Made by a program: the position numbers and the translations under genes | The notes under the pieces: generated by a model | What the model was told of the DNA's origin: nothing | What the model saw: the letters and a program-made list of their open reading frames with translations, nothing else | Databases searched by the model: none | Shown here: piece after piece, positions 6,823-9,713 of the stretch | Numbering within the stretch: position 1 is the stretch's first letter | How the letters are laid out: every line of letters begins with the position of its first letter | Assembly: GCA_003697085.1 (NCBI GenBank) | Contig: RFFU01000113.1 | Coordinates: 1 to 9,713 of the forward strand | Reading direction: 5' to 3' | Length of the DNA: 9,713 nucleotides | Source: Candidatus Hydrogenedentota bacterium | GTDB lineage: Bacteria > UBA8481 > J006

Positions 6823-8394
6823 CTATCTCAATAACGAGCCGACGGCCGCGCGATAATGCGCCGCTGCGGCCTCCACCTTGTTCTGCTTCAAAAGTGTCTC
6901 CGCCAACAGCATCTCCGTATCGTAATCCCCCGGCCTCAAATTCGCCGCCTCCGTCAAGTGAACTTCAGCCTCCGGATAACGCCGCGCGCGAAGATAGGCC
7001 TCTCCGAGGTTGCGATAATACCAGAAAAGCGCTTCTTCTTTCCCCGGCTTCTTTCCGCCGATCACCTCCAGTGTCACCGCTGCGGGTTCCGTCTCCGCCC
7101 TTCCCCCCTCTTTGGAAACAGGCCCCGGCGCTACGGGTGAATTCCGGCTGCCGTAACCGTAGAGGCGACTCGGGGGTTCCTCCAAATAGCGATACACCCG
7201 CTCCGGAACCTCGTCCTTCACCGAGGCTTCAAAGCGATCCGCCCAAATCACCATGCCCGTGTGAGCGTCGATGAGCCGCAGGAAGAGCCTCACGATCGCT
7301 TCGCGTCGTAACATCGGCTCCGCAGCGGCCGGATTTCGTGACGGATCAACGCGTAGAGTCTTCTCGACGATTCGGTAACTCAGTATTTGATCCGCCGTTG
7401 GAATTTTCGCCGGCGGCACAAGCGGGTTCGGGCGAATCCGATAACGCGTCCGCGTTCCATCGGCTCCAACAACCTCCAACGCTTGATTTGCCGAGAGAAG
7501 TCGTGCGTCATAGAGGAACGGCGCCTCCGGGCCGCCGTGACGCGTCAAAATCTGTAACAGCATCGTATCCCCGCGCGCCGCTTCGTTCGCGATCCGAGCC
7601 AGAAGATGTTGGTCGCGCTCAACCACCTTGCGCCCGTACTGCGCCAACTCCGCAACCAACACGTCCTCGATCAGCGGCCGCAATCCCCGGCCCTCCCCAA
7701 CCTCGGCCTCCTGGCTTACAATCGCGATTGATTGCGAACTCTTGATTCCCGGCATAAAGGCGACCCCGCGCAGAGCCCTTCGCACAGCCACACGAAGCAG
7801 ATCGTCATTCGTGGGAAACGCATAATACGGAAGACGCGCTTCGAGTATCTCGTGAACCTTCGTCGTCTGGTTCGGAAAGACCTCGTACACGCGCTCGATC
7901 GGCTTGAATCCCTCCTTCTCGAAATGCAGTTCGTATCTCCCCGGCTCCAAGTTCTCGATCTCCACCGGAGCGCCGGGGCGTTTCTTCGTCCGCCCGATCT
8001 CCTCTCCGTCCAACACGATTCGTACGCCCCCCGGCTCCGTCCGAATCTCGAGATTGCCGGTGGGCGCGCGGTACGGCTGGATCGGTATCTCTTCGAGATC
8101 CGCCAAGACCGGAACCTCTTCCCCGCTCTTCACCTTCACGCTCCGCCGCCAGTCTCGATAACCATCGCGTTTCACCGCAACACGGTATTCGCCCGGTTTC
8201 ACCTCGATCGTCACCGGCTTTACTTCGTTCAACGTCCGCCCCACGAGCCGCTCGTTGACGTACACCTCGGCGCCCCCGGGTCGCGAATAGACCGCCAAAC
8301 GCGCCGGTACGCATCCCGCCAGAAGAAGATTCAAAAGGAACAAGGCAGGAACTCGAAGATCGGAATGACTCGACTTTTTCACCTTTCGCTTCAT
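6823..8394 (-). CDS. PEGA-domain lipoprotein with CsgG-like middle domain and C-terminal TPR
   Basis: A 523-residue envelope lipoprotein of unknown specific role. The start at 8394 is chosen over an upstream in-frame GTG (8487) because it gives a basic n-region, a hydrophobic segment and a lipobox LLAGC with Cys28. A GGAAAG precedes it. Two PEGA modules follow, at about 31-102 (RPGGAEVYV, VGRT, GEYRVAVKRDGY) and about 113-186 (EPGGVRIVLDGEEIGRT, GRYELHFEKEGF). The middle, about 195-390, resembles the CsgG/FlgO-type periplasmic fold: SIAIVSQ, a PLIEDVLVAEL helix, TADQILSYRI and IDAHTGMVIWADRF. TPR-like helices lie at about 455-520 (YYRNLGEAYLRARRYPEAE). PEGA modules are beta-sandwich units found in surface and envelope proteins. 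It is homologous to the gene upstream and heads the four-gene block, ending 20 bp before the HD-GYP gene. No clear sigma-70 promoter was seen in 8395-8490. The CsgG-like assignment rests on pattern only. Confidence 0.85.
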   Translation of the reverse strand: MKRKVKKSSHSDLRVPALFLLNLLLAGCVPARLAVYSRPGGAEVYVNERLVGRTLNEVKPVTIEVKPGEYRVAVKRDGYRDWRRSVKVKSGEEVPVLADLEEIPIQPYRAPTGNLEIRTEPGGVRIVLDGEEIGRTKKRPGAPVEIENLEPGRYELHFEKEGFKPIERVYEVFPNQTTKVHEILEARLPYYAFPTNDDLLRVAVRRALRGVAFMPGIKSSQSIAIVSQEAEVGEGRGLRPLIEDVLVAELAQYGRKVVERDQHLLARIANEAARGDTMLLQILTRHGGPEAPFLYDARLLSANQALEVVGADGTRTRYRIRPNPLVPPAKIPTADQILSYRIVEKTLRVDPSRNPAAAEPMLRREAIVRLFLRLIDAHTGMVIWADRFEASVKDEVPERVYRYLEEPPSRLYGYGSRNSPVAPGPVSKEGGRAETEPAAVTLEVIGGKKPGKEEALFWYYRNLGEAYLRARRYPEAEVHLTEAANLRPGDYDTEMLLAETLLKQNKVEAAAAHYRAAVGSLLR

Positions 8395-8518
8395 CTTCTT
8401 TCCGTCCAAGTCCTCTTCCCGACTATCCGCGTCCCACCGGTTCCCTTCGAAACAGGCGCATAGAGCCTCGTTAACATTCCTTACCACCCGTCTTCCGTGA
8501 TCTCATCTTTCTGTGTCA

Positions 8519-8535
8519 TTCCGTGTCTTCCGTGG
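8519..8535. repeat. 9-bp unit array, right flank relative to the minus-strand operon
   Basis: CCGTG recurs at 8521 and 8530 (spacing 9) within TTCCGTGTC and TTCCGTGG. A lone TTCCGTGA at 8493-8500 and CTGTGTC at 8511 look like decayed outliers. The same unit recurs in the same orientation at 8702-8727. Confidence 0.75.
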
Positions 8536-8540
8536 TTTTT

Positions 8541-8575
8541 CGTTCACCGTTTTTCGTTTACCGTTATTCGTTTTT
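8541..8575. repeat. Five 7-bp CGTTNNN units
   Basis: CGTT begins at 8541, 8548, 8555, 8562 and 8569, an exact 7-bp period. The units are CGTTCAC, CGTTTTT, CGTTTAC, CGTTATT and CGTTTTT. The core is invariant and the last three bases vary. Confidence 0.85.
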
Positions 8576-8601
8576 CATCCTTGGACATCGTTCGGTGAAT
8601 T

Positions 8602-8636
8602 CGAAACGTTAAACGATAAACGGCCAACGGTAAACG
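8602..8636. repeat. Five 7-bp NNNAACG units, inverse of the CGTTNNN array
   Basis: AACG begins at 8605, 8612, 8619, 8626 and 8633, again with an exact period of 7. The units are CGAAACG, TTAAACG, ATAAACG, GCCAACG and GTAAACG. This is the reverse complement of the 8541-8575 array, in register over five units and separated from it by 26 bp. The AACGGTAAACGA at 8626-8637 is an exact 12-bp inverted copy of TCGTTTACCGTT at 8554-8565. Confidence 0.85.
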
Positions 8637-8662
8637 ATGACTGTTCACTACATCTCCTGTTC

Positions 8663-8697
8663 CCTTTTGCCCTTTGCCTTTTGACTTTTGCCTTTCT
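8663..8697. repeat. Five 7-bp CCTTTTG-type units
   Basis: The units CCTTTTG, CCCTTTG, CCTTTTG, ACTTTTG and CCTTTCT repeat with a 7-bp period. The G falls at 8669, 8676, 8683 and 8690, and the last unit is decayed. The sequence is unrelated to the CGTT arrays but has the same period and the same number of units. Confidence 0.8.
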
Positions 8698-8701
8698 CAT
8701 T

Positions 8702-8727
8702 TTCCGTGTCCTCCGTGCCTTCCGTGG
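8702..8727. repeat. 9-bp TCCGTG unit array, left flank relative to the minus-strand operon
   Basis: CCGTG begins at 8704, 8713 and 8722, an exact period of 9. The units are TTCCGTGTC, CTCCGTGCC and TTCCGTGG. It is a direct repeat of the array at 8519-8535, so the two bracket the 7-bp arrays. Confidence 0.8.
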
Positions 8728-8761
8728 TCTCGCGGGCGACACGGCTCATCCCCGTTCTCTG

Positions 8762-9713
8762 TCAGCGGACTCGCGGTTCCGAGGAAACGGTCACCGGGAA
8801 CTCAATTACGCCTCTCGACGCGTTCGAAATTTCTTTCGTTTGACGCGGCGTATCGGGCAGAGGTTCCGCGGCAAAAACCGACGGCGGATTTTCGAGAAGC
8901 GGAGATACCCTCACCGGGATTCGGTCCTCGCCTGTCCCGGTCAGCATCCCCGCCCACTGCACCGTCCCCGTTTTCGCATCGATGACGCGCACGTGCATCC
9001 GGACAACCACGCGGCGCAGGTACATCGGCTCCGGCAGATTCTCCGTCAGAGAGACGCGGTTCTTGGACAACCCGCATTCCAGAATGCGATAGGCCAACAA
9101 CTGGTCCGCCGTTTTTACCGACCCCGTGATCGGCTCTTCGACGCGAATCTTCTCGACCTTCTCCGTCTTGAGAACCTTCCTCTTCGCAACTTCGTGTTTT
9201 CGCCTCCATCGTCCGGAAGGGCGTATCGTCTTCTCTCGAACACGCGTGACGGGAATCCGCCGTTCTTCCCAACCGGCGACGCGTGTCTCGATCGCGGCAT
9301 CGTACCGGAACGGAGTCCGCTGTCCCTCGTGACGAGTCTCGAGCCGCATCTTCAAACGCTCCCCGGAACTCGAATGCGCCAAGCGTATCATCAATTGATC
9401 GTCCCGCTCGCCGGGCCGAAATCCCGCCTGCGTCAACGCTTCCATGAAGGCATCCTCGATCACGGCTTGCAACGGTTCATCGGAATTCCGAAGACGGGTG
9501 ATCGACGTCAACACGATCGTCGCGTCGGGATCCAGCGCCGGGATCTTGGTTGATCCCGCAACAACTTTTCGAACGGTTGCGGCGATCGCCTGAGCGTCCG
9601 TCGGGTATTTGTACCAATCATCGACGGGTTCAAGATGAGCCCGAACGCGATTATCTCGCTTCGGCCCCACCACCAGAACCTTCCGCCATCTCTTATAGCC
9701 GGGCTTCTCGACG
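8762..9713 (-). CDS. PEGA-domain protein with CsgG-like domain, N-terminus outside window
   Basis: The frame is open to the right edge (first full codon 9712-9710), and 316 residues precede the TGA at 8764-8762. The first visible residues, EKPGYKRWRKV, followed by a basic strand ending in HLEP, are the end of a PEGA module, so the GTG at 9673 is internal. From about residue 34 the protein is homologous to the downstream lipoprotein. Shared features in order are YPT/FPT, an IEDA helix followed by a QAG/QYG turn, PFRYDA/PFLYDA, TADQLLAYRI/TADQILSYRI and IDAKTGTVQWA/IDAHTGMVIWA. It differs in a Lys/Arg-rich insert (about 157-191) and in having no C-terminal TPR. A lipoprotein or signal peptide is expected upstream but cannot be seen. 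The role is unknown beyond an envelope protein. It is separated from its paralogue by the repeat island, so co-transcription is uncertain. Confidence 0.8.
   Translation of the reverse strand, partial: VEKPGYKRWRKVLVVGPKRDNRVRAHLEPVDDWYKYPTDAQAIAATVRKVVAGSTKIPALDPDATIVLTSITRLRNSDEPLQAVIEDAFMEALTQAGFRPGERDDQLMIRLAHSSSGERLKMRLETRHEGQRTPFRYDAAIETRVAGWEERRIPVTRVREKTIRPSGRWRRKHEVAKRKVLKTEKVEKIRVEEPITGSVKTADQLLAYRILECGLSKNRVSLTENLPEPMYLRRVVVRMHVRVIDAKTGTVQWAGMLTGTGEDRIPVRVSPLLENPPSVFAAEPLPDTPRQTKEISNASRGVIEFPVTVSSEPRVR

Follow-up and report, generated by a model that had tools for sequence, protein, structure and literature searches.

An intergenic gap of a Candidatus Hydrogenedentota genome contains several arrays of short tandem units, some of them heptamers in exact phase, and the question that it raises is what these arrays are and which process has placed them there. 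The window, that is, the whole stretch of 9,713 nucleotides that was analysed, carries them between two protein genes of the minus strand (6823-8487 and 8762-9673) and not within 23S rRNA. One of these neighbours codes for a PEGA/TPR protein and the other for a protein without Pfam match.

Arrays of the window and their copies in the genome

The core of the region is a hairpin of about 96 bp. Its left arm is composed of five CGTTNNN heptamers (CGTTCAC CGTTTTT CGTTTAC CGTTATT CGTTTTT; 8541-8575, plus strand), recognized by sequence, TRF and pattern count. This arm is followed by a 26-nt, TCATCCTTGGACATCGATCGGTGAATTTG-like loop without any ORF (8576-8601), which alignment of the copies from the same genome shows to be common to dispersed copies, and by a right arm of five NNNAACG heptamers (8602-8636, plus strand; sequence, TRF and RNA fold), the reverse complement of the left-arm unit. 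The fold of the hairpin has an energy of -35 kcal/mol (z -3.0) on one strand and of -38 kcal/mol (z -4.5) on the other. A third array of five CCTTTTG-type heptamers then follows (8663-8697, plus strand; sequence and TRF), the last unit being degenerate (CCTTTCT).

These positions (8541-8575, 8602-8636 and 8663-8697), established here by sequence and TRF, are those already given by a sequence-only reading of the same DNA. That reading regarded the arrays as three separate and unrelated ones, but two of them are reverse complements and constitute one inverted pair. Its extent, 8541-8697, was also too short, since three-unit TTCCGTGNN arrays border the composite of hairpin and CCTTTTG array on both sides. 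The first of them, TTCTGTGTCA-TTCCGTGTC-TTCCGTGG, has a period of 10/9 (8509-8535), and the second one, TTCCGTGTC-CTCCGTGCC-TTCCGTGG, a period of 9 (8703-8729); both were detected on the plus strand by sequence and TRF and are in direct orientation, not inverted. The proposed count of five units per array holds for the three heptamer arrays but is not strict across types: unit number is about 5 in arrays of 7-8 bp and 3 in those of the CCGTG type.

Chance low complexity does not account for this phasing, as shown by a 313-kb sample of the genome together with whole-genome searches. When two mismatches at most are allowed, CGTTNNN x4 is matched 8 times in the window, compared to an expectation of 0.01, and none of 200 shuffles reaches this number; with one mismatch at most, there are 50 matches in the whole genome. 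The backward-read pattern (43 matches) was discarded as a null because, at period 7, TTGCNNN describes the CCTTTTG family. The 313-kb sample contains 47 period-7 arrays (exact 4-base cores, at least four repeats) and no period-8 arrays by the same scan, and five order-3 Markov surrogates yielded no period-7 arrays. Other loci of this genome thus carry phased arrays, and neither of the outcomes that the sequence-only reading had named as refuting it (no other locus, or chance low complexity) was observed.

With respect to the composite as a whole, a 301-bp query gave 55 matches at E<=1e-5, and it or parts of it are present in about 40 separate places (counted by eye). Eight of the copies have the arms in common while their flanks differ, and five of these also share the loop; in several, arms and loop are 81-88% identical and the flanks are unrelated. 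A full copy at one locus (L002) is 88% identical, and identity is 81% at two others (L003 and L004). The order of the modules is constant among copies, from hairpin to CCTTTTG array to TTCCGTG array, and the hairpin slot is often taken by another palindrome, GCAGACTGGAGAGTCTGCGCTCCA. The elements are much rarer inside long ORFs than random positions, an ORF of at least 200 aa covering 14 of 30 element midpoints and 555 of 600 random positions.

Other dispersed palindromic families of this genome adjoin the composite at seven loci, namely GGGCGACCGGCCGGTCGCCCCTAC, TCGCAGACTGGAGAGTCTGCGCTCCACAT, GGGGCGCAGGTTCTCCAACCTGCG and TCATTCCGAGGCGG...GAGGAATC; the TCGCAGACTGGAGAGTCTGCGCTCCACAT palindrome occupies the slot that otherwise holds the CGTT hairpin. 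One composite copy (L004, about 1650-1720, contig C23 of genome G000) contains a long (CTTTC/TTTCC)n pentamer array.

Two gene families bordered by tandem arrays

Two families of small proteins are relevant to the origin of these arrays. PF05635 groups four-helix-bundle proteins, also called S23 or Avd-like, and is the family of the 23S rRNA intervening sequences (IVSs), and PF13366 corresponds to the GxxExxY proteins, which have a PD-(D/E)XK fold. The only PF13366 gene of the genome is enclosed by inverted arms of three units each and belongs to a series of genes that, on reading their sequence, were named as efflux-type. The array at 8509-8535 of the window has the form of a GxxExxY-type terminus, and the same class borders GxxExxY genes elsewhere. 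One PF05635 gene is enclosed by inverted GGGCAA arrays. The other one (L157, contig C46 of genome G000), which is split over two contig ends, is bordered by a CCTTTTG array like that at 8663-8697 and, at its opposite end, by a different array, GGGATCG; its arrays are thus not simply an inverted pair. Genes with CGTT-type arms were not found in this genome, and the assignment of the CGTT pair is accordingly based on its architecture, that is, period, unit number, inversion and dispersal.

In other genomes, the left and right flanks of PF05635 genes form an inverted repeat with a score of at least 32 at 46 of 69 loci. This score is reached by 1 of 63 distal windows, taken 1.05-1.4 kb away at those loci (Fisher p 5e-17), by 5 of 678 permuted pairs and by none of 22 ParE loci. 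Tandem arrays are present in 82 of 138 near flanks and 9 of 126 far flanks, with periods of 7 (52 arrays), 8 (21) or 9 (4). PF13366 genes are bordered by inverted arrays of period 8-10 at 27 of 48 loci, as against none of 42 controls (Fisher p 4e-10). The median unit number is 5.3 at PF05635 loci and 3.0 at PF13366 loci. Clear inverted arrays were not detected at one third of the PF05635 loci and nearly half of the PF13366 loci. The 5 x 7 and 3 x 9-10 arrays of the window thus match the termini of PF05635 and PF13366 cassettes, respectively.

The sequence of the unit does not follow that of the encoded protein (rho 0.03), indicating that the latter does not bind its ends in a simple sequence-specific manner; cognate recognition of the unit by the cassette protein was rejected for this reason. 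Regarding the variable bases, shuffled unit order pairs the two arms equally well (26 arm pairs, combined p 0.54, a test of low power with 3-5 units per arm), and covariation between arms is therefore not claimed. The in-register excess of arm identity was set aside as evidence, since choosing the best register inflates it. The period depends on the gene type while the unit sequence is free, which fits an encoded protein or complex that would fix the step and not the sequence. The entry of a solved relative, XCC0516 (2gsc), contains five chains, and one might speculate that a pentameric S23 protein acts on about five heptamers.

Some arrays extend into the genes that they border. For instance, the right 9-bp array of one cassette (L253, 1835-1905) is in frame and forms a (PSQ)n C-terminal tail of the PF05635 protein, and in other cassettes (L340 and L346) an array unit supplies the stop codon. 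Genome G009 has nineteen short PF05635 matches, many of them paired on opposite strands about 170 bp apart (e.g., C7:104028-104554, C2:122174-122711 and C3:436717-437275). In genome G141, about ten GxxExxY copies are clustered at C1:784-829 kb, some of them truncated and some less than 500 bp apart.

The CCGTG-type arrays are spread over many phyla. The pattern TTTTGNCTTT joined to two TCCGTG words has at least 97 matching stretches, the estimate under uniform base composition being about 2. Hosts among the matches listed include Planctomycetota, Acidobacteriota, Verrucomicrobiota, Desulfobacterota-type bacteria, Nitrospirota, Elusimicrobiota and Gammaproteobacteria, with isolates of Marinobacter, Geomonas, Luteimonas, Rudaea and Desulforhopalus. 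The majority of the matches listed are inverted pairs CCACGGA...TCCGTGG with three units in each arm. Many Opitutaceae/Verrucomicrobia keep such a pair in one place (twelve loci), beside GCGAGGAAAAGGATTTTGTCTTT and immediately upstream of a gene starting ISSLQNPRVKQL; this vertical retention hints at a function at that place.

Filled and empty sites, and the origin of the arrays

Comparison of close relatives shows that these cassettes insert precisely between genes. Four-helix-bundle genes bordered by inverted heptamers are found in named cyanobacterial plasmids; for instance, such a cassette lies between nrdB and nrdA in a Nostoc edaphicum plasmid, and between cas6 and cas4 in Anabaena sp. 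90, where the left array is long, and in Pseudanabaena galeata. One site of a conjugative plasmid exists in four states. It is empty in N. linckia and Fremyella (AAAAAGTAATTAACAAAT), which are about 98% identical, and 428 bp shorter than Trichormus; it is filled in Trichormus and Scytonema (AAAAAGTAAT-cassette-GTAATTAACAAAT), with GTAAT on each side as a 5-bp target repeat; it is truncated by an internal deletion in Nostoc C052; and in Brasilonema it holds an ORF-less array pair whose unit is the same as that of the filled cassette. Filled and empty sites were also observed in Nostoc ATCC 53789 pNsp_c versus C052 pB, where the repeat is ATG alone (3 bp), in Calothrix brevissima versus N. carneum and Tolypothrix, in N. 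edaphicum versus Calothrix NIES-4105, and in Anabaena 90 versus Nostoc UHCC 0302. The 5-bp duplication is clear at a single cyanobacterial site, a second site having 3 bp. The insertion point tends to be where the stop of one gene meets the start of the next one. Direct observations are the association of the arrays with two gene types, the precise intergenic insertion of cassettes whose sites are cleanly empty elsewhere, and the existence of ORF-less and deleted forms at one insertion site.

The cas6/cas4 gap that holds the S23 cassette in Anabaena 90 contains a different inverted element, GTAGGTTGGGTTGACGC...GCTTAACCCAACCTAC, in Dolichospermum UHCC 0315A (L360, about 405-640). In genus G141, one PF05635 cassette ends in arrays that are found again at more than 100 places of that genome, in most cases with no gene between them; at the orthologous intergenic site, two congeners carry instead a GxxExxY cassette whose arms consist of three units. 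A presence/absence comparison within this genus (L268 versus L326) is one-sided, as the right flank differs, and was counted only as support.

The arrays of the window are therefore best interpreted as remnants, devoid of any ORF, of the termini of very small mobile elements that carry an S23 or a GxxExxY gene, a reading to which a probability of roughly 0.8 is assigned. A complete element would be a cassette of about 420 bp, with one short gene enclosed by inverted tandem arrays, and there would be two sister types: PF05635 cassettes, with ends of about 4-6 units of 7-8 bp, and PF13366 cassettes, whose ends have about 3 units, each of 8-10 bp. Of the arrays in the window, the inverted CGTT/AACG heptamers and the CCTTTTG array would be ends of the former type, and the CCGTG arrays ends of the latter. 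The gene-less pair of the window may be a dispersed deletion derivative, moved in trans in the manner of a MITE. The cassette protein would act on the terminal arrays during movement, and slippage may lengthen the arrays. In RNA, the inverted arms could pair into a stem of the RNase III type, like that of 23S rRNA IVSs, and insertions within operons would then be tolerated. Among the roles listed by the sequence-only reading, mobile module is thus the right one, while protein binding, nucleoid structure and recombination find no direct support; its idea that a single process underlies the shared period is supported.

Other explanations have been proposed for repeats of this kind. The authors who described similar paired arrays in Geobacter metallireducens take them as IHF/HU-like sites (PMC2700814), and multimeric binding of a nucleoid protein or global regulator, with selection through gene expression, would suit a phased spacing of 7 or 9 bp. 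However, the unit sequence is essentially free between elements, the arrays are specific to the borders of two gene families, and insertion sites are empty in relatives that are 98% identical, all of which makes regulator sites improbable. Earlier work ascribed the heptamer excess to slippage (quoted in PMC4679880 and PMC4692102), and in-place expansion of long perfect arrays does occur (e.g., L344). Plain polymerase slippage without any mobile element is nevertheless very unlikely, as it leaves unexplained the inverted pairs, the loops conserved at dispersed sites, the tie to two gene families and the clean insertion polymorphism. Movement in trans driven by a reverse transcriptase, suggested by the relationship between PF05635 and the Avd protein of diversity-generating retroelements (PMC10053308), was likewise rejected as very unlikely: a PF00078 reverse transcriptase was not found in this genome (a draft, 95% complete), and across 145 genomes it is present in 14 of 50 with PF05635 and in 26 of 95 without it (p 1.0), i.e., there is no co-occurrence. 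The least credible alternative is mobility of the REP/BIME kind through a RAYT (Y1) transposase. Mosaic intergenic hairpins do resemble BIMEs and the genome has one Y1-transposase gene, but this gene is single and no heptamer arrays were seen in its surroundings (L159); besides, each arm is a tandem array and not a short REP palindrome, and the genes inside the arrays are S23 and GxxExxY, not RAYTs.

Extending the mobile-element reading, S23 and GxxExxY cassettes could be the two branches of one hitherto unrecognised class of minimal mobile elements with no known transposase. Period and inversion, and not sequence, would define their termini, the encoded protein setting the period. These elements and their ORF-less derivatives might then be a common source of the heptameric repeats of many phyla and of the 23S rRNA IVSs. 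This broader proposal is tentative and has, in our judgement, somewhat less than an even chance of being correct.

Relationship to known repeats and intervening sequences

Heptameric repeats of cyanobacteria, Geobacter, Xanthomonas, Beggiatoaceae and the Coxiella IVS had each been described separately, and the origin of such repeats and that of S23-bearing rRNA intervening sequences have been separate questions. Apart from the Coxiella IVS paper, no report tying such arrays to S23 or GxxExxY genes was found in the open-access literature searched. Arrays of this kind are now tied to two very common "hypothetical" gene families, so that several "mystery" repeats could be joined to one testable cause, and they should not be taken by default as regulator sites or G-quadruplex elements. 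The clean insertion sites of culturable cyanobacteria make mobility, target choice and the roles of the S23 and GxxExxY proteins directly testable.

STRR are heptanucleotide repeats of heterocystous cyanobacteria and, like the arrays of the window, consist of many copies of tandem 7-bp units between genes. The sequence-only reading had pointed to them, which proved a good lead, because heptamers of cyanobacterial plasmids directly border four-helix-bundle genes and travel with them. The GGGAATC/GGGGATT repeats of Xanthomonas and Nostoc (PMC4692102) and the TAACTGA repeats of Beggiatoaceae (PMC4679880) are also intergenic tandem 7-bp units, those of Xanthomonas being often paired and inverted. 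However, all these repeats, STRR included, have other unit sequences, and their descriptions present them as G-quadruplex elements or as repeats of regulatory or fingerprinting use, and not as the ends of elements.

MITEs resemble the window in being short, ORF-less, dispersed between genes and provided with inverted ends. Their ends are conserved inverted repeats whereas here they are period-fixed tandem arrays, and their parent carries a transposase gene whereas the cassettes that resemble a parent encode S23 or GxxExxY, which are not known transposases. With respect to target-site duplication, GTAAT is duplicated at one cyanobacterial cassette site and only 3 bp at another, and no empty site was found for the window.

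In G. metallireducens, class 3 sites are inverted pairs of five tandem heptanucleotides, and class 2 sites are three tandem TCTCCGTS[Y] units (PMC2700814), close to the TTCCGTGNC of the window. The heptamer pair of the window is likewise inverted, while its CCGTG arrays are direct. Both classes are proposed there as IHF/HU sites, in passages that make no link to S23 or GxxExxY genes.

The IVS of Coxiella burnetii 23S rRNA is a 428-nt S23 element with tandem heptamers before the S23 ORF and a 28-bp terminal stem that is cut by RNase III (PMC4990558). It shares with the cassettes the four-helix-bundle ORF, the size of about 428 bp, the complementary stem-forming ends and the heptamers before the ORF. 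It differs in its location in 23S rRNA, since the cassettes described here lie between protein genes and have tandem arrays at both ends. The copy of the window retains complementary stem-forming ends and has lost the S23 ORF. Owing to their heptamers and RNase III stem, IVSs are regarded as the nearest relatives of these elements, and a similar RNA step would be expected for the latter.
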